DNA of 27,348 nt from a virus. The translations under genes were made by a program, and so were the position numbers. The stretch is taken from positions 1-27,348 of the IMG/VR virus record IMGVR_UViG_3300037558_000630. The stretch is one strand, 5' to 3'. Position 1 is the first letter of the stretch. Each line of letters starts with the position of its first letter. Positions 6,798-27,336 of this stretch are shown here, piece after piece. The notes below the pieces were generated by a model, which did no database searches, was not told where the DNA came from, and saw only the letters and a list, made by a program, of their open reading frames with translations.

Positions 6798-7147
6798 GTC
6801 GGGATAAGACCTTTTGCGATCTGGTTGTTGCGCCGCCGCTCTTCTCGTGCCATAGCACGCAGAGCTTTGAAATCACGGCGCTCAGCAGCGCGGCGAACCT
6901 GCCTGGAAGGTGGACGCTCGATAGTCGGAATATCGCGGTTCGCTTTCTGCTTCTTGCGGAGCCGCTCAGCAGCCCGCGTCTCACCAGCCCGTGCAGGCTC
7001 AGGGTTTGCGAAGGTGATGTTCCAGTTGTTCATGATCAGCGTCTCTGCCGTTGTCAACGTCGGCGACGGGAACGCCTCGGTTTTCTTGACCCGCTTCTTC
7101 TTCTTGCGGTTCGGCATCAGCCGCTTGAATTTCTGCCACAGTTTCAT
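6794..7147 (-). CDS. Basic hypothetical protein (117 aa)
   Basis: A 117-residue, very basic protein starting MKLWQKFKRLMPNRKKKKRV. It has a Lys-rich N-terminus, a linker with Pro/Thr (FPSPTLTTAETL) and an Arg-rich C-terminal half (RPPSRQVRRAAERRDFKALR, REERRRNNQ). Most of the chain is likely helical or disordered. The charge suggests nucleic-acid binding, but no domain is recognised. Its ATG shares one base with the stop of the DNA ligase gene (TAATG), so it is probably translated with the ligase. Confidence 0.7.
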   Translation of the reverse strand: MKLWQKFKRLMPNRKKKKRVKKTEAFPSPTLTTAETLIMNNWNITFANPEPARAGETRAAERLRKKQKANRDIPTIERPPSRQVRRAAERRDFKALRAMAREERRRNNQIAKGLIPT

Positions 7148-8530: not shown

Positions 8531-10942
8531 TTAAAACGGCACTTCACCGGGCTTGTCCTCGTCGAGTTCCATTTGGGCCGGATCGTCCCACTCTACCCTA
8601 CCGTGGGCTTTCTCCCATGCCTCGCGACACTGGTCCAAAGTTCCGAAGTCGTAGAAGGCCATGCGCTTGCTGACTTTGCGAGATGAACCATAGCCATCGT
8701 CAATCTCGACTGTTCCGCGCCGCCTGACTTTCTGCAAGTGTGGACACATGCGAGATAGGAACCTGCCCAGAGCAGTTTCGTTACCTCTCCGATTGAACCG
8801 CCACAGTTCCATATATCTGATGAAATCCTGTGTGATCTTGTCGGCTGGTGTGAACCTCTCCCACTCATCATCGGTATCAAGCAATCTGCCGTCTTGCAGC
8901 TTGCGGAACCACCACTCTTCGTCGTAGTTCATGGACAGCAGTTTCTGCTCTTGCAACGCATCAGTCTGCGGAACGTTGCGCACCTGGAAGTTGCTTATGT
9001 CCACCGATTGCAGATAGTAGAGCAGAGCTTCATAGCCGCCATTTTCCATCTGTTCATTGAGACGCCCAAAGAACTCAGCATTCTGTCGCTTGCCCTCGCC
9101 GACATTGAGAACAAAGTAGCGTCGTTCGTCTCCGGTTGCACGAATAACGTGCGGATCGTTGGACGCCATAATCATATGCACGAAGTTGGGCTGCGCTTCT
9201 ACATCGTAGCCCTTCTTTTCAATTGGTAGGATATCCTCGGTGATCAGCATCTTGAGCACTGACTCGTGAGACTTATCACCAGCAAAGAACGCTTCGTCAG
9301 CGAACAACATGCAGCAGTCTTGAAGGTGTGCGTTGAAGTTGCCGACTAGATGCTTCGCGTTGGCAATGTGCAGGAAGTGTCGCCCAAAGAGACGTCCGAA
9401 TGTCCTGGCGAACCAGCCCTTACCTGTCCCTTTGCCGCCTCGCAGAACGACAGCTACCTCTCCAGCACTCGCAGGCTCTTGCACAGCCCGCGCCATCCAA
9501 CAGATCAGATATTCGTAGTAGATTTCATTGCCGTTGCAGATGTTCTCTTTAACATGCTGGAGATACAGACTACAATCACCAGGAACACTCTCGTAAGCGA
9601 AACCACGCCACAAGTTGTAGACACCATCTTTCTCAATGAGAGGCATGAACCGCATCGTGTCATACTGGCGGCGCATGGGATGCTTGAGCCAATACTTGCC
9701 GAGTTCTTCGGTGACGTCGCCACCTTCTTTAGTCGTGCCGACTTTTATTCGCTTGTGCATGTATCGCTGACGGATACTGTCAAAGCTGGACATTGTCAGC
9801 TTCGTGCGTTTGAAAGTCTGATTGTTATGCAGCTTGAGGTGATCGTCGATCTCCTCGATGACCGCAGTCTTGCCACCAATGTTACCGATCACAGCATGTC
9901 GGTCGTTCATCATGAGCAGATTGGGGTCTTCAGCATATTGCTTGGCCCGTGCGATCTGCCGACGCGCATACCTGTCTGCACCAGACTTGAGTTCAAGCAC
10001 ACTATCTGAGATCCGCCAACCGGGGTCCGTGAGAATACTGTAGATTACACTGTCAGGCACGCCGCAGCGAGCCAGACCGCAGCAGCAGTCGAACACCCAA
10101 GCAGACCTGGAGTTGTCCTTCTCCTTGGGCTGGTCTGGATGGTGGCCCTGCGCAATGATAATCTTGATCCTGTCAGGCACTGACCATTCGTCGAGTTCCG
10201 TCAGGTCTGCAATTTTCTCAATGTTGCCTGCATCAATATCAACGCCCTGTTCCTTGCCACCGTCCATCATAGATGCAGACGATTGCACCCCGGCAGCTTT
10301 CTTGAAGTCGCTGATATCGTAAACAGCTTTCGGATCAAAGTGAAGCAGCTTGGCTTCTACTTCAACCCGGCCTTTCTTGCGCTTTTGCGGATTAGGAATG
10401 TTGATCGTGCCGGGTAGGCGTGCGATGCGATCGATGTTGAAGCAGTGATCGCCTCCGAACACCTGCTCCAATCGCTTATTGTATGCCTCGAAGTCTTCCC
10501 ACTTTGACTCGGTGCCTTCAATGAGCACTGGGTCTTTCAACTTCCAGAAGCCCCAGTATCCATTTCCTGAGAACACAATGGCTGTCGGCTTGGGCATACC
10601 TTTCGGCAGCTTGTCGGTAAGCTGAGACAGCATCATATCAAGGTCGCGGTCTAGACCCTCTCTATCAGTGGCGTTGCTGTCAATGTCAACATGCAGCCAA
10701 GCACCGTGACTGATGTCAGTTTTCGCAGGCTTTGTGCTGATTGGATGGGTAGTATCGTTGACCAGGAAATACAGATTACGCTTGCCGTTCTCCCGCTCAA
10801 CAAAAGCCAGAGCTTCTTTCTCACTGGTGTAGGTCTCAAAGGTTACACCCTTCCGGTCGGGAGCAATAGCGCCCAAAGTCCATGGACCGCCCGGTTTGAA
10901 CTTCTTCAAGAAGTCGATGGCTGACTTACTGTTCCCTTCCAT
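8531..10942 (-). CDS. PrimPol-type primase fused to SF3/DUF5906-like helicase
   Basis: An 803-residue replication protein. The ATG at 10942 follows GGGGTG; a GTG two codons earlier is also possible. The N-terminal third is an archaeo-eukaryotic-type primase domain: WLHVDIDSN has the metal-binding D-x-D (about 86-88), FSGNGYWGFWKL (about 125-136) replaces the usual sxH loop, and RIARLPGTINIPNPQK (about 172-187) is the conserved R-x-x-R-LPGT-N region. The C-terminal half is a ring helicase/ATPase: Walker A GGKGTGKG (about 502-509), Walker B MLFADEAFF, then IMASNDPHVIRATGDERR. It should prime and unwind DNA at the replication fork. A small basic/acidic C-terminus follows. Confidence 0.9.
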   Translation of the reverse strand: MEGNSKSAIDFLKKFKPGGPWTLGAIAPDRKGVTFETYTSEKEALAFVERENGKRNLYFLVNDTTHPISTKPAKTDISHGAWLHVDIDSNATDREGLDRDLDMMLSQLTDKLPKGMPKPTAIVFSGNGYWGFWKLKDPVLIEGTESKWEDFEAYNKRLEQVFGGDHCFNIDRIARLPGTINIPNPQKRKKGRVEVEAKLLHFDPKAVYDISDFKKAAGVQSSASMMDGGKEQGVDIDAGNIEKIADLTELDEWSVPDRIKIIIAQGHHPDQPKEKDNSRSAWVFDCCCGLARCGVPDSVIYSILTDPGWRISDSVLELKSGADRYARRQIARAKQYAEDPNLLMMNDRHAVIGNIGGKTAVIEEIDDHLKLHNNQTFKRTKLTMSSFDSIRQRYMHKRIKVGTTKEGGDVTEELGKYWLKHPMRRQYDTMRFMPLIEKDGVYNLWRGFAYESVPGDCSLYLQHVKENICNGNEIYYEYLICWMARAVQEPASAGEVAVVLRGGKGTGKGWFARTFGRLFGRHFLHIANAKHLVGNFNAHLQDCCMLFADEAFFAGDKSHESVLKMLITEDILPIEKKGYDVEAQPNFVHMIMASNDPHVIRATGDERRYFVLNVGEGKRQNAEFFGRLNEQMENGGYEALLYYLQSVDISNFQVRNVPQTDALQEQKLLSMNYDEEWWFRKLQDGRLLDTDDEWERFTPADKITQDFIRYMELWRFNRRGNETALGRFLSRMCPHLQKVRRRGTVEIDDGYGSSRKVSKRMAFYDFGTLDQCREAWEKAHGRVEWDDPAQMELDEDKPGEVPF

Positions 10943-11282
10943 TTTCACCCCAATAGATTACCAGTCTGTCTGGACAGACCTTGCCTTGTTCCATCATGTT
11001 ATACCAGTATCGCGAGACACCTGCCTGCTCAGCGCACATTGGGATTGTCCACCCAGAACGCCGCCTCAATATGAAGCAGATCTCGTGTGAATACAGGTCT
11101 CCGATGAAAGGCATTTCCTTCAGACTGCATTTCGTTTCTTGTCGCTCCAGTGCTGTGTAGGCTGTGATGCTCATACCCAGCACGGGACCAGCTTCTCTCT
11201 GCGTATATCCTTCTCGCCGCCGCCATATCAGGAGACGTTCGCCCAGTGTGAGGCTGGATACGGTGAGATTAGGAAGTCGCAC
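10926..11282 (-). CDS. Helix-turn-helix regulator with two HTH-like segments
   Basis: About 118 residues from a GTG at 11282, chosen because AAGGA lies just upstream and because the domain starts LGERLLIWRRREGYTQREAG. Longer starts at 11327 or 11360 would overlap the nuclease gene by about 100 nt or more, so the N-terminus is uncertain. GYTQREAGPVLGMSITAYT is an XRE/Cro-type HTH followed by ALERQE. A second, similar segment, FILRRRSGWTIPMCAEQAG then VSRYWYNMMEQGK, looks like another HTH. The protein is probably a DNA-binding regulator. It lies between nuclease and primase, overlapping the latter by 17 nt. Confidence 0.75.
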   Translation of the reverse strand: MRLPNLTVSSLTLGERLLIWRRREGYTQREAGPVLGMSITAYTALERQETKCSLKEMPFIGDLYSHEICFILRRRSGWTIPMCAEQAGVSRYWYNMMEQGKVCPDRLVIYWGENGREQ

Positions 11283-11674
11283 AGTTCCTTCTGAGGTAGA
11301 GACTTCTCGAACACCTTCAATGCCCATTCGTGCATCTCTGGTCGTGTCATGTTGTCCCATAGGTTATTCACCTTCAACGTGGTTGCGGAGAAAAAGAACC
11401 ACGACGTGCTGACCTTGCAGCAGACCAGACTGATGCCGCCACGCTTCTCTCTGCGATAAGCCCAGACCTGCTGCTCTTTCGTCCACGGGTGAGGGAACTT
11501 CACCGGATTGGTGTCTGCTCCTTTGGGCCACGCTTTCATCGCTTTGCATTCAATCCATCCGCAGATGTAGTTTACATCAGGGATGCCGAGGCCAGTCATG
11601 GGTGACTCAATGGCGACGGCATCCAATGAGGCGGCGCGTTTGATCAGCGTCGCCTTCGCGCTGTTCTCTGACAT
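11228..11674 (-). CDS. VRR-NUC-type nuclease (PD-(D/E)XK)
   Basis: A 148-residue protein starting MSENSAKATLIKRAASLDAV, with GGAGAG upstream of the ATG at 11674. ESPMTGLGIPDVNYICGWIE followed by CKAM contains the nuclease core: Glu23, Asp33, Glu42 and Lys44 fit E...PD...E-x-K. The next part, KFPHPWTKEQQVWAYRREKR, is typical of VRR-NUC/Holliday-junction-resolvase-like phage proteins. It likely cuts branched or structured DNA during replication and recombination. It is first in the unit behind the promoter-like site at 11705-11733. Confidence 0.82.
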   Translation of the reverse strand: MSENSAKATLIKRAASLDAVAIESPMTGLGIPDVNYICGWIECKAMKAWPKGADTNPVKFPHPWTKEQQVWAYRREKRGGISLVCCKVSTSWFFFSATTLKVNNLWDNMTRPEMHEWALKVFEKSLPQKELCDFLISPYPASHWANVS

Positions 11675-15704: not shown

Positions 15705-16261
15705 TACAAGTCTCCGAGATCAGGCAGCATGGACCAGTCGTCACCGAAGCTCTCCCAGTATGCGTCAAGCACAGCAGGAGCGAACCGGGCAGCATCACGC
15801 TTCACATATTTGTGAATACGTTCAAGCATGACTTCCATGTTGCGGTTGCCGATATGGATCTGGTCCCGACAGAACAAGGCCAGTTCGAAGATGTCCAAGC
15901 CAGCGAGCCACATAGCTTCGTCTTTGCTGAGGGCAATGGCATGGTCGTAGCCCAGCGTGTCCACGAGGATGTCGTGCTCTATTTGGGCGAGGTTGTCTTT
16001 GTCTACAACGCCGAACCATTTGGGCGGAGCCGGAATATCACCAGTCAGCCGCTCCGGTGCATCGTGTTCAAGGATAGCCCAAACGAGAGGCAGCGGTGCA
16101 TCGGGCCAGAGGATGCGAAGCATGGACAGCATGTTGAACTTGTGAATGCCGACGTTGTATTCGCCGATAATCGGGACGGTGTGGCAGCGGCGAACCGCCC
16201 CTGCCTCTCGCATGAACTTGATCTTGCGCGTTGTCGTTGTCGCGTGCTGATATACATTCAT
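15704..16261 (-). CDS. HD-domain nucleotidase (YfbR-like)
   Basis: A 185-residue protein. RRCHTVPIIGEYNVGIHKFN (24-43), ILEHDAPERLTGDIPAPPKW (63-82) and LAGLDIFELALF with Asp123 give the metal ligands His40, His66, Asp67 and Asp123 of HD phosphohydrolases related to 5'-deoxynucleotidase YfbR. The RR-x-H-T and TGDIP signatures are typical of that group. It should remove phosphate(s) from deoxynucleotides; the substrate cannot be read from the sequence. Related HD enzymes in some phages deplete one dNTP to favour a modified base, which fits the neighbours here. It is linked to the thymidylate-synthase homologue by an ATGA overlap. Confidence 0.85.
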   Translation of the reverse strand: MNVYQHATTTTRKIKFMREAGAVRRCHTVPIIGEYNVGIHKFNMLSMLRILWPDAPLPLVWAILEHDAPERLTGDIPAPPKWFGVVDKDNLAQIEHDILVDTLGYDHAIALSKDEAMWLAGLDIFELALFCRDQIHIGNRNMEVMLERIHKYVKRDAARFAPAVLDAYWESFGDDWSMLPDLGDL

Positions 16262-17286
16262 TGCGCTCTCCGTTCAAGCCATTCTACACATGCCTTGCGC
16301 CAATCAGGAGCAAGGATCTGGTGAGCAAGTTCCAGCGCCTTGTCGTAGTGCAGCGGGTCTTCACGGTTTTTCCATGCGTGCCAGGATTGCAGCATCGGCA
16401 CGGCTGTTTTCTTGAAGAACTTGTCGCGCAGGCCGATAGCAGGACCAACGTCCATGAACATTTCCAGATCTTGGAACCAGTCCTCAATTGGACCATTCAC
16501 CATCGGCAACGGCGAAACTTCGCCAAGCTCATATGGATCAAAGCCGGGGCTGATGTCAAACAGACCAGCGTGCTTCTCGAGAGTTGCATGATACCCATGG
16601 AAGTTCGTGCTGACCTGCCAATAGCCGCCCATCGGCACACCGATCCATGCGGCCATCACTTCCTGCATCATAGAGAAGTGAACTGCGTTCGCACCATAGG
16701 CACCCCAGATCATGTCGTTGCTGCGATTGAACACAGTCATGTCCAGCTTGCCATACGGGTTCACACGCAGCGTGCAGATCAGGTTGCAAGGGAAATCCTT
16801 GCCGTTCAGGCCGAGGTCGCTCTCTACGTCCCACATTTGCAACACGACCCGCCTGTCGTCTGGGTTCTGCCGCAGCAGGTTGGCGATCGTCTCCAGTTGA
16901 TCGATCACGCCGACTTCACGCTTGATGCCATCGGGCATCTGCTCATGAACGCCGAACCAGCCGCGCCACCGCTTTCCGTAGCCACCGTGGAAAGTGACAC
17001 CGTCATCGCTATAGTTCGCGATGTTGCTGGAGAACTGGCTGATCCAGTCCACATCATTTCGGCCTGCGAGCATCCATAGACCTTCCATGAAGTGGAAGTA
17101 TGGGTTGGCGTCCCGCTCTGCGTAGAACAGGACGCGCTCCTCCGGGTGCTTGTAGTGAGTGGTGACTGGTCCTGGGAACACCCGGACAGGACCATTCCGT
17201 GAGTCGCGTTCAACGCCTTCTGCTTTCAGGGCTTGCAGCCCAATGAGAAGGGCGTCGTTCACGCCGCGTGCGCTGATGACTTTCAT
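16258..17286 (-). CDS. Thymidylate synthase homologue / possible dUMP hydroxymethylase
   Basis: A 342-residue protein of the thymidylate synthase fold. TFHGGYGKRWRGWFG (98-112) is the YG-x-x-WR loop, DDRRVVLQMWD (143-153) the phosphate-binding Arg pair, and KDFPCNLICTLRVN (163-176) the catalytic Cys167. FNRSNDMIWGAYGANAVHFS (186-205) carries the R-S-N-D motif and an Asn (200) where dCMP hydroxymethylases have Asp, which points to dUMP as substrate; NFHGYH follows at 228-233. The residue after the catalytic Cys is Asn instead of the usual His, as often seen in phage relatives. It would make dTMP or 5-hydroxymethyl-dUMP. The ATG at 17286 overlaps the glycosyltransferase stop. Which reaction it performs is undecided. 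Confidence 0.88.
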   Translation of the reverse strand: MKVISARGVNDALLIGLQALKAEGVERDSRNGPVRVFPGPVTTHYKHPEERVLFYAERDANPYFHFMEGLWMLAGRNDVDWISQFSSNIANYSDDGVTFHGGYGKRWRGWFGVHEQMPDGIKREVGVIDQLETIANLLRQNPDDRRVVLQMWDVESDLGLNGKDFPCNLICTLRVNPYGKLDMTVFNRSNDMIWGAYGANAVHFSMMQEVMAAWIGVPMGGYWQVSTNFHGYHATLEKHAGLFDISPGFDPYELGEVSPLPMVNGPIEDWFQDLEMFMDVGPAIGLRDKFFKKTAVPMLQSWHAWKNREDPLHYDKALELAHQILAPDWRKACVEWLERRAQ

Positions 17287-18627: not shown

Positions 18628-18828
18628 CTACTGTTTTGTCTTCTTGAACGCCATGATGAGGATTATCAGAGGCGTGAACCCGACGAACAAAAAGCCGAAG
18701 GCTGCGACCAGCGGGTGCATCTTGGGCTTCTTGCCCTTGACGATCTGGTCGGCATACCACCCAATGAACAAGGCATACATGCCGAACCAGTAAATCGCCA
18801 GCCAGAGAACCCAGTCAGGTAGGAGCAC
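18628..18828 (-). CDS. Two-helix small membrane protein
   Basis: A 66-residue protein. The longer frame begins far inside the upstream gene and is not credible there; a GTG at 18828, eight bases after GGAG and overlapping the upstream stop by 14 nt, gives a sensible product. LLPDWVLWLAIYWFGMYALF and VAAFGFLFVGFTPLIILIMA are two hydrophobic segments joined by a basic loop (DQIVKGKKPKMHP), and the tail FKKTKQ is basic. It is a predicted inner-membrane hairpin with both ends on one side. Size and topology resemble small holins or membrane-anchoring peptides, but the location between DNA-modification genes does not support a lysis role. Confidence 0.7.
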   Translation of the reverse strand: MLLPDWVLWLAIYWFGMYALFIGWYADQIVKGKKPKMHPLVAAFGFLFVGFTPLIILIMAFKKTKQ

Positions 18829-19705
18829 GATACTTGCTCCGCGGCTTACCCTGCCCGAGCCTGACCCGTTCATACTTGTCGAACTCACACAAGCCGAACT
18901 GGATATCAGTTGGAGACAGGGTGAACTCATGCCCAAAGAAGTTCGCCTGCTCATGCCAGAGCCACATGATGCAGGAGAAAGCCTTGTCGTTCTTGAGAGG
19001 CTTTGCTGAGTCGTCTCCGAGAACACGGGCTGCTCCACGCAGAGCACCGGGGCCGATAGGCGTCCAGTCGTTCCAGTCGGCAGGGAAGGACATACGCTCG
19101 TTGTGGGCACGGTTTTCCCAGAAACCAGTATAGGTCGTGTCCAGCAGAACTTCCTTGGTCATGAAGCCAGTGCCTCCGAACCCTTGAATCTGCATCATAC
19201 GACGAGCCACCTTCTCCCAGGACTGAGTGGTCTGTGCCAGCTTCACGATCTCCGGCGTCGCTTCCCACAAAGCCTTGAGAAAGTAATTGACCACCACTTC
19301 TTGTTTCGGTGCCGATATGCCCTGATTTGTGATGACATACGCCCCGGTGAATACTCGCTCACGGTTTGCAAGTCGGTCCGTCGCGGTGTCCTCGATGAAC
19401 TCAAAGTCGAACTCCTCGTAGTTGTTCCAGCCGATCGCCGATGCGAACTCGTAAGTCCCAAAGTAGCGGAACGTTGCGCAGTTCATGAGGATTGCACGGC
19501 GATCATCATCGTAGTTCGGTGTGTAGAACCGTTCTCTCAACTCCATGCTGGTTCGGTCGTGTTGTCTCCGAACGTTGGTGAATTTGAAGGTCTGAAGAAT
19601 GTGGTCTTCAGTCCACGGAAAGAAATCGCCCGCCTCCTTTCGAAGGCGGACGTTCTCGCGTTCAGTGAGGTAATCAAAGAACGCTGGTGCGCGAGCAACG
19701 CTCAT
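18815..19705 (-). CDS. Thymine hypermodification family protein (5-hmdU kinase helical / amino acid:DNA transferase group)
   Basis: A 296-residue protein. AFFDYLTERENVRLRKEAGD, PWTEDHILQTFKFTNVRRQH (30-49), FTGAYVITNQG, FGGTGFMTKEVLLDT, GPGALRGAARVLG and the C-terminal CEFDKYERVRLGQGKPRSKY are, in that order, the motifs of a helical family known from phages with hypermodified thymine. Relatives are named 5-hmdU DNA kinase helical domain, alpha-glutamyl/putrescinyl thymine pyrophosphorylase, or amino acid:DNA transferase. Such proteins act on 5-hydroxymethyluracil already in DNA. I cannot say which subgroup this belongs to, and no P-loop kinase domain is fused. It shares a base with the preceding gene (TAATG). 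Confidence 0.8.
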   Translation of the reverse strand: MSVARAPAFFDYLTERENVRLRKEAGDFFPWTEDHILQTFKFTNVRRQHDRTSMELRERFYTPNYDDDRRAILMNCATFRYFGTYEFASAIGWNNYEEFDFEFIEDTATDRLANRERVFTGAYVITNQGISAPKQEVVVNYFLKALWEATPEIVKLAQTTQSWEKVARRMMQIQGFGGTGFMTKEVLLDTTYTGFWENRAHNERMSFPADWNDWTPIGPGALRGAARVLGDDSAKPLKNDKAFSCIMWLWHEQANFFGHEFTLSPTDIQFGLCEFDKYERVRLGQGKPRSKYRAPT

Positions 19706-25361: not shown

Positions 25362-25699
25362 CTAATAGATCTTCGCTTGAATTTCGGTATATTCATTGTG
25401 ACGTCCACTCCACTGGAGAAGTTTCACACGCCCTTCGTTGTAGTATGCAGCGAGACTTGTCGCCATGCCGATCAGTCCTGGGTTGCCGATTAGAAGAAGA
25501 TGATCATCATCGCAGAAACCAGACAGCTTCTCGTGGAGATCGCCCAAGACGAGGTCGGGGTTGAACGGGTGTGCGCTGGGCGAGAGAGATACACGATTTC
25601 TCCCCATCGCTCTGCTTTCTTGATTGACGTGAAGCGAGGGACGAGTTCGCCCTTCGCTTGGTCAAATCGCATCTGTTGCTGAACTGCGTAGACAGTCAT
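25362..25699 (-). pseudogene. Small phage protein interrupted by a frameshift in a CT repeat
   Basis: Two overlapping frames together give one conserved-looking protein of about 110 residues. The first starts MTVYAVQQQMRFDQAKGELV at the ATG at 25699 (overlapping the helicase TGA) and is readable to GEIVYLS. The second continues PSAHPFNPDLVLGDLHEKLS, DDDHLLLIGNPGLIG and LLQWSGRHNEYTEIQAKIY. The break lies in minus-strand CTCTCTC (25582-25588). Removing one CT restores VYLSPSAHPFNPD exactly. Either a 2-base slippage has broken the gene, or a -1 ribosomal frameshift joins the frames, or the base call is wrong. Relatives are found beside phage helicases; function unknown. Confidence 0.75.
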
Positions 25700-27171
25700 A
25701 TCCACTCCTTCATCTCGTCGCCAAGAATTTCCGTGGACACGTTCTTCTTGTTGCGCAGGTTCCTCACAATGTGTTCGTCGATATCAAAGTCGCTCATGAT
25801 ATCGATGTAGTTGACTGGATGCTCGTCCATGCCGCCCCGGTGCGCTCGGTCTTCAGACTGGAGGCGATCCACTAGCCTGAACGAGTTGCTGTAGTAGACA
25901 ACGGTCTTCGCCTGTGTGAGTGTCAGGCCGCTGCCGCCCTTTTGGGCATTGCCGACGAACCACTTGTATTCGCCGCGTTGGAAGGCCAGCTTGTTCTGCT
26001 CTGCTGTGTCGTCATCAACCGCACCATCATAACGACACGCTTTGTCACCGAGTAGATCCATGATCTGGTCGATGTCATGGCGGAACCTAGCCCAAATGAT
26101 GCCCTGATGGTGAACTTCTGCATCGATCTGCTCGAGCACTTGCAAGCGAGGGTTCTTGTCCGAGAACATGTGAACCGGCTCGTCTTCACCGACAGGGACA
26201 TAGTTGCACGCGATCTGCTGCAAACGTAGTAGCATCACGATCGGTAGCTCTGCTGTGATCATAGAGTCGCCGACCTCGATCATCAGCTCTTCTTTGAGTT
26301 CTTCGTAGGCCGCACGCATTTCACGGCTGGCTTCGAAATAGCGTTTCTGGTAGAGCTTCGGAGGCAGATCAAGCACGTCGTCTTTCACGACACGGTCGGA
26401 GATCTCATTCAGCCATGCGGCCAGCTTGTCAAGGTTCTGATACTCGATCAGTTTATCGTAACCAGGATCATAGCCATGAAGCTGTTGGCAATCAGCTCGA
26501 GTGAACCAGCGCCCAAAGTAATTCCGGAACTCTACGGTTCCGTGGATGCCTTTGTTCTTCCAGAAGTATTCGTCGAGGAAACGAATTTGACTATAGAGGT
26601 CGAAGGGTCCGACAGCCACGGGAGTTCCGGTAAGGATACGACGCATTTTCGCATACTTACCAGACGCGACAATGGACTTGGTCCTCTTCGCATTGGGCGT
26701 CTTAATGTTATGCGCTTCATCGAGGACATACAGAACGTCTTTCTTGGCAAGGAACTTCTTGACAAGTTCCTTGCCTTCCTTGGTCATGAAGGCGTTGTAG
26801 CTGATGAGCAGCACAGACAGACCGTCGTGGGTGAACAGACTCTCCATCGCGCGTTTGTGCGCCTGCGTGTGTTTCTTGGCGGTCTTGAATACTTGGACCA
26901 GTGTGTCCAGAGCGACGTCTGGAGGCATGTGCTTCGGGATTTCGTCGGTGTTCCAGTTGCGCTCTACGCCTGGAGGCGCGACAACGAGCAAGCCGTTGAT
27001 GTTTCCGAGCTGATATTGGATTGCTGCCGTGTCGATGATCGGCTTGGTTTTCGCTGTTCCCTGTTCCCACAGCAGACCCCACGCCTTCTGTCCCACGTTG
27101 CGATACAAGTGTTTCCGCTGATGTTCGAACGGTTCCACTTGATGTTGATAATTCTTGAGTAGATCTAACAT
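25696..27171 (-). CDS. SNF2-type DNA helicase/ATPase
   Basis: A 491-residue SF2 protein starting MLDLLKNYQHQVEPFEHQRK, with AGGAG upstream of the ATG at 27171. LLWEQGTAKTKPIID (33-47) is motif I, with Ala replacing the usual Gly before Lys-Thr; VLYVLDEAHNIKTPNAKR is the DEAH motif II; RRILTGTPVAVGPFDLYSQI is motif III. In the C-terminal lobe IIWARFRHDIDQIMDLLGD, GNAQKGGSGLTLTQAKTVVY and DRLQSEDRAHRGG are motifs IV to VI. It belongs to the compact phage SNF2/Rad54-like helicases used in replication initiation or recombination. It is the first gene of its unit, downstream of the 9-bp repeats. Confidence 0.9.
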   Translation of the reverse strand: MLDLLKNYQHQVEPFEHQRKHLYRNVGQKAWGLLWEQGTAKTKPIIDTAAIQYQLGNINGLLVVAPPGVERNWNTDEIPKHMPPDVALDTLVQVFKTAKKHTQAHKRAMESLFTHDGLSVLLISYNAFMTKEGKELVKKFLAKKDVLYVLDEAHNIKTPNAKRTKSIVASGKYAKMRRILTGTPVAVGPFDLYSQIRFLDEYFWKNKGIHGTVEFRNYFGRWFTRADCQQLHGYDPGYDKLIEYQNLDKLAAWLNEISDRVVKDDVLDLPPKLYQKRYFEASREMRAAYEELKEELMIEVGDSMITAELPIVMLLRLQQIACNYVPVGEDEPVHMFSDKNPRLQVLEQIDAEVHHQGIIWARFRHDIDQIMDLLGDKACRYDGAVDDDTAEQNKLAFQRGEYKWFVGNAQKGGSGLTLTQAKTVVYYSNSFRLVDRLQSEDRAHRGGMDEHPVNYIDIMSDFDIDEHIVRNLRNKKNVSTEILGDEMKEWI

Positions 27172-27192: not shown

Positions 27193-27221
27193 AGCCTAGC
27201 CCAAGCAGGGCGCGGCGACTA
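27193..27221 (-). promoter_or_regulatory. Promoter-like site P10 (TAGTCG-17-TAGGCT)
   Basis: Minus-strand TAGTCG (27216-27221) and TAGGCT (27193-27198), spacer 17 nt ending in CTTGGGC. It lies 22 nt upstream of the helicase ATG. The triplets of 9-bp repeats begin 14 nt upstream of the -35, as activator sites would. Confidence 0.45.
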
Positions 27222-27235
27222 GCTTCCTTTCTCAG

Positions 27236-27262
27236 TGACCATACTTACCATACTTGACATAC
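27236..27262. repeat. Three tandem 9-bp repeats, proximal cluster
   Basis: TGACCATAC, TTACCATAC and TTGACATAC lie end to end on the plus strand. The cluster is flanked by CTCAGT (27231-27236) and ACTGAG (27261-27266), which are inverted copies. The 9-nt unit and strict phasing resemble iterons or protein-binding direct repeats. Confidence 0.8.
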
Positions 27263-27309
27263 TGAGAAAAGAATAACAGGTGACACATTTTGCCAATCAA
27301 AACAACGGG

Positions 27310-27336
27310 TTGCCATACTTGCCACACCTGACATAC
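27310..27336. repeat. Three tandem 9-bp repeats, distal cluster
   Basis: TTGCCATAC, TTGCCACAC and CTGACATAC lie end to end, the same unit and orientation as the cluster at 27236-27262, 47 nt away. A further related TTTTGCCAATC lies between the clusters. More copies may exist beyond the window edge. Confidence 0.8.

Follow-up and report, generated by a model that had tools for sequence, protein, structure and literature searches.

The two triplets of 9-bp repeats that precede the gene for an SNF2-family helicase in the window, a 27,348-base IMG/VR fragment, on balance probably represent the proximal half of an iteron-type origin of replication, situated where the replication module begins, an assessment that we base on the sequence of the fragment and of its relatives. 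The window comes from a phage that is related to Mesyanzhinovviridae and Pam3-like phages. The DNA that contains the triplets, which we call R1, is a conserved non-coding control region in a family of bacterial viruses, and it has a partner, R2, before the terminase small subunit gene (terS).

Phased 9-bp repeats in the window

Read on the minus strand, the triplets are GTATGTCAAGTATGGTAAGTATGGTCA and GTATGTCAGGTGTGGCAAGTATGGCAA, and the units within each of them are contiguous (Table 1). They fit three consecutive copies of GTATG[GT][CT]AA with 1 and 2 mismatches, against 8 for the next best non-overlapping 27-mer. A two-unit pattern allowing at most 3 mismatches gave five matches, four of them in this stretch, whereas dinucleotide shuffles lead one to expect 0.01, and the period of 9 in the repeat stretch was stronger than all other periods from 6 to 20, a result equalled in none of 300 shuffles. 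Because four matches stand against an expectation of 0.01, and because 9 is the sole strong period, the repeats must be considered real and correctly placed. The first-pass annotation thus had the coordinates, the unit, the end-to-end triplets, the 47-nt spacer and the site upstream of SNF2 right. It had missed that the contig ends inside the repeat region, 12 bases past the second triplet, that a 13-bp inverted repeat surrounds triplet A5, and that related genomes contain a partner region.

In the relatives, the position of the spacer is occupied by an inverted array (A4) and AT-rich DNA. Most relatives have the element AAAACAACGGGTTG, in exact or near copies, next to the AT-rich stretch of R1, of R2 or of both. 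The window copy of the region is the fourth least stable 60-bp stretch of its own fragment, a moderate AT-richness that has to be read with the contig ending inside the region.

Table 1. Features of the R1 region and associated genes in the window
Feature	Position	Strand	Remarks
Triplet A3	27310..27336	-	Three 9-bp units, GTATGTCAG GTGTGGCAA GTATGGCAA; aligned in L002, L003, L005, L007
Spacer between A3 and A5, 47 nt	27263..27309		A4 degenerate in the window
Element AAAACAACGGGTTG	27299..27312	+	Overlaps A3 by 3 bases
Triplet A5	27236..27262	-	Three 9-bp units, GTATGTCAA GTATGGTAA GTATGGTCA; closest to the SNF2 promoter
13-bp inverted repeat around A5	arms 27224-27236, 27261-27273		Absent from some relatives
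Putative SNF2-operon promoter, weak, sigma70-like	27193..27221	-	TAGTCG (27216-27221), 17 nt, TAGGCT (27193-27198); from sequence reading
SNF2-family helicase	25696..27171	-	First gene of the replication module
Two XRE-like HTH domain protein	10926..11360	-	Gene overlaps primase-helicase gene; candidate binder
Primase-helicase, VapE-like/DUF5906 helicase domain	8531..10948	-	Candidate initiator or recruited helicase

Conservation of R1 in related phages

The SNF2 protein, used as a query, led to 32 related loci, among which the intergenic DNA before SNF2 was compared. This DNA has as many as five arrays, and typically the full set (forward, reverse, forward, reverse, forward), followed by the SNF2 promoter, with an AT-rich stretch amid the arrays. 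SNF2 follows the array directly in every case, unless an inserted gene comes between them. In L006, L010, L012, L028 and L031, inserted genes that resemble those of HNH homing endonucleases, identified by reading, separate SNF2 from the array region. The unit is AGT-NNN-G[TC][AC], in which NNN varies between phages: it is typically ATG in the closest relatives of the window and ATA, AAA, AGA, GAT, GAA or ATT elsewhere, usually with a single version per phage across its arrays. Both A3 and A5 align with arrays of L002, L003, L005 and L007, and the A5 block AAG.ATGGTAAGTATGGTCA is invariant in all but one column in the five phages.

Ten long relatives of 52-66 kb were analysed over their full length. 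In nine of them, the densest 350-bp cluster of units in the genome lies just upstream of SNF2, with 4-13 units against 0.5-0.75 expected. Many unrelated copies throughout the genome, which the first-pass annotation had named as evidence against an origin, are not what the genomes of the relatives contain: double units exceed chance in R1 alone, with none beyond chance outside it, and single units are present in R2 as well. Phasing of 9 bp also occurs at the equivalent place with other sequences, strongly in Epa43, PAKlein3 and JM2 and weakly in Pam3, and the phasing test gave no signal in Simon, PaMx11 and TM26. Since Epa43, PAKlein3 and JM2 have changed the letters and retained the phasing, the latter has been kept across several lineages.

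A partner region before terS

When all 60-bp stretches were ranked by nearest-neighbour stability in the 16 genomes holding both places, R1 and R2 were the two least stable stretches in 15 of them. In G004, where an inserted gene splits R1 from SNF2, R1 falls outside the two least stable stretches. SNF2 and terS are 0.51-0.59 of the genome apart, and a like region at about half a genome's distance suggests paired, linked start sites in these viruses.

R1 and R2 duplicate each other in the named phages: over 225 bp in Pam3 (92% identity), 232 bp in TM26 (79%), 370 bp in PaMx11 (76%), 209 bp in Epa43 (79%) and 189 bp in Simon (76%), and JM2 has a 57-bp repeat common to both regions with an identical 26-bp piece of array. 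The pair is the best or second best self-repeat of the genome in all six. Nearly all related records are matched twice by probes made of R1 and R2 (32 places in 16 records, 6 in 3 and 2 in 1). The copies are opposite in orientation in PaMx11 and Epa43, so that the core flips relative to the downstream gene in these two phages and keeps its orientation in Pam3, TM26 and Simon; all PaMx11 genes are annotated on one strand. The shared core does not include the promoter element. In PaMx11, Pam3, TM26, Epa43 and Simon, each of the two regions has the motif CGCTAG[GA] next to its AT-rich stretch.

In the group to which the window belongs, R2 is recognised by its position, AT-richness and matching units only. 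The units in it number 1-3 and mostly keep a near-constant distance from the AT-rich stretch, and the alignment of whole R1 and R2 regions is marginal, being clearly above shuffles in G008 and G013 only. R2 units nevertheless resemble the R1 of their own genome, with a mean of 2.09 out of 3 against 1.15 for the R1 of other genomes (permutation P 5e-5, descent not controlled, the genomes compared being related and not independent samples). In G002 and G004, which are near the window, R1 and R2 alike contain ATG units. A conserved minus-strand ORF of ~175-250 aa is found left of R2, divergent from terS, in G006-G013, G002 and G004; the copy of G009, when scanned, had no match in Pfam or PHROG.

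Putative promoter, candidate binding proteins and other genes

The putative SNF2-operon promoter was missed by a consensus promoter scan. The sequence TTGGGCTA at 27197-27204 is conserved, and the relatives have better -10 boxes (TATAAT). The gene for the two-HTH protein probably starts at 11360, not at 11282 as first annotated, judging from the extra N-terminus MGQ[HY]D that is kept in relatives. The first of its two HTH domains is far more variable than the second. In a covariation test with the unit across 11 related genomes, which leans on phylogeny and is not interpretable, this protein had a partial r of 0.01, the Dda helicase, ligase and primase-helicase scored above it, and no protein stood out as array binder. 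The AlphaFold model of the two-HTH protein (pLDDT 73) gave weak matches to repressors; that of the primase-helicase had a mean pLDDT of 44, with an unusable C-terminal half.

Elsewhere in the window (18815-19705 and 16258-17286), we found a Pfam HMUDK_hel (5-hydroxymethyl-dU DNA kinase) domain and a gene resembling thymidylate synthase / dUMP hydroxymethylase, the latter assigned by synteny with annotated relatives. Because of these two, hypermodified thymine is probably present in the DNA of this phage.

Discussion

Initiation at an iteron-type origin may be envisaged as follows. Copies of a phage-encoded protein would sit next to each other on the contiguous 9-bp units of several arrays, upon which the adjoining AT-rich stretch would open, and the primase-helicase and the family A polymerase of the phage would start at the opened stretch. 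The protein that binds R1 probably acts at R2 too. Origin function, the binding protein, the opening of the AT-rich stretch and the role of R2 are what we infer from the observations described above. An iteron-type origin fits these best because the arrays are combined with an extreme AT-rich stretch, are unique in the genome except for the partner region, adjoin replication genes and have a core that occurs in either orientation.

The view of the first-pass annotation that the location makes an origin attractive is therefore upheld in part. The uniqueness of the array apart from its partner, its conserved place, the AT-rich stretch in the relatives and the 9-bp phasing that persists despite changed sequence all support it. 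On the other hand, the GC skew, a check proposed with it, is nearly monotonic, without a turn at R1, and is uninformative, since the genes almost all point in one direction. The HTH protein named there as a possible binder shows no covariation with the unit. Other observations also count against an origin, namely the rank of the window copy in AT-richness, the marginal likeness of R1 and R2 in the group of the window, the operator-like location of the SNF2-proximal array just upstream of the promoter, and the fact that two regions, each ahead of one module, would also fit a common control of transcription.

The latter point is the basis for the main alternative, in which R1 and R2 are operators and one phage regulator, bound to the 9-bp arrays, acts as a switch for the operons of replication (SNF2) and of packaging and structure (terS), jointly or in turn. 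We consider this unlikely, if by no means negligible. Each region does head a module and is followed by TTGGGCTA or a -10-like element, the SNF2-proximal array stops just short of the -35 position, and the phage encodes the two-HTH protein. However, that protein shows no covariation with the unit (in the 11 related genomes, where the test leans on phylogeny), double units are found nowhere else in the genomes beyond chance, and the shared core of 190-370 bp, including the AT-rich stretch, goes beyond what operators need. PaMx11 and Epa43, moreover, have the core turned round with respect to the gene that follows it. Simple operators are thus less favoured because inverted copies lie ahead of same-strand genes, because the shared core is long and because the promoter elements are outside it; for PaMx11 in particular, the copies face opposite ways despite the genes being on one strand, and hence an origin fits better than a promoter.

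It seems improbable to us that R2, and perhaps R1 too, is a packaging (pac) or recombination site of circularly permuted genomes, a view that may be supported by the position of the terminase small subunit gene directly after R2 and by the description of the family as headful-packaging with permuted genomes (PMC11946847). R1, however, is far from the terminase genes and, in the group of the window, richer than R2. Furthermore, two arrays half a genome apart are not usual for pac sites. As to the 13-bp inverted repeat, together with A5 it could fold in the SNF2 leader RNA into a hairpin that regulates translation. The predicted energy is -33 kcal/mol, but the z-score is only -1.64, L003 and L007 retain the triplet but not the arms, and the hairpin is upstream of the apparent promoter. 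Rfam gave no family for it, and we have set aside an RNA hairpin or riboswitch, weak and not conserved as it is, as very improbable.

The proposed origin can be compared with several known systems. Iteron plasmid origins of the RepA/RepE type have tandem short repeats by an AT-rich stretch, a replicon-specific unit and replication genes nearby. The phage region resembles them in all these respects: tandem short repeats above chance are phased, the unit is specific, replication genes are near, and an easily melted, AT-rich neighbour is present in 15 of 16 relatives (moderate in the window copy, where the contig ends). It differs in that plasmid iterons are ~17-22 bp long, whereas the 9-mers of the phage adjoin one another in several triplets whose orientation alternates, that no Rep gene is adjacent, and that there are two such regions per phage genome.

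In satellite phage P4, ori1 and crr carry the same repeats, and there is one primase-helicase, the alpha protein. The phages studied here likewise carry shared repeats in two regions that lie apart, together with one primase-helicase, which is known from its gene. The initiating helicase-primase of P4 is a fused protein (PMC7145576). Unlike in P4, the regions are spaced by half a 60-kb genome and the phage has its own family A polymerase; the likeness is one of arrangement. The origin of the SaPI elements, used by their Rep protein, has repeats that flank an AT-rich stretch. The phage shares this arrangement, and its primase-helicase has a helicase domain of the same VapE/DUF5906 type; binding of the phage helicase to the arrays is hypothetical, and the model of its C-terminal part is of low confidence. 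Finally, 9-bp units and an AT-rich neighbour are reminiscent of oriC, but near-matches to the DnaA box TTATNCACA number 12 in the window versus 13 expected, none of them in the array, and an oriC with DnaA boxes was rejected. DnaA domain IV is absent from the group of the window. Small, stand-alone DnaA domain IV proteins are encoded beside the family A polymerase gene in Pam3 (W02, 42182-42391) and RHph_TM26 (W03, 6916-7116).

A limited literature check found no mapped origin for YuA-like/Mesyanzhinovviridae and Pam3-like phages, and the papers checked that deal with phage Lydia, A1432, ZC01, Vojvodinavirus and Pseudanabaena cyanophages do not mention such a region. As an extension of the origin reading, which we regard as possible rather than probable, the 52-66-kb phage group may have two origins that bear iterons and co-evolve, one for each module and separated by roughly half a genome, served by a single phage initiator whose specificity differs between phages, with each origin firing in its own phase of the infection or with the two obligately paired. 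The two precise, conserved regions make the origin question directly testable in cultured relatives, and the phages concerned include some that have been proposed for therapy. The fact that the sequences of R1 and R2 change together points to one protein of rapidly changing specificity, a property that could govern superinfection or hybrid incompatibility among related phages.
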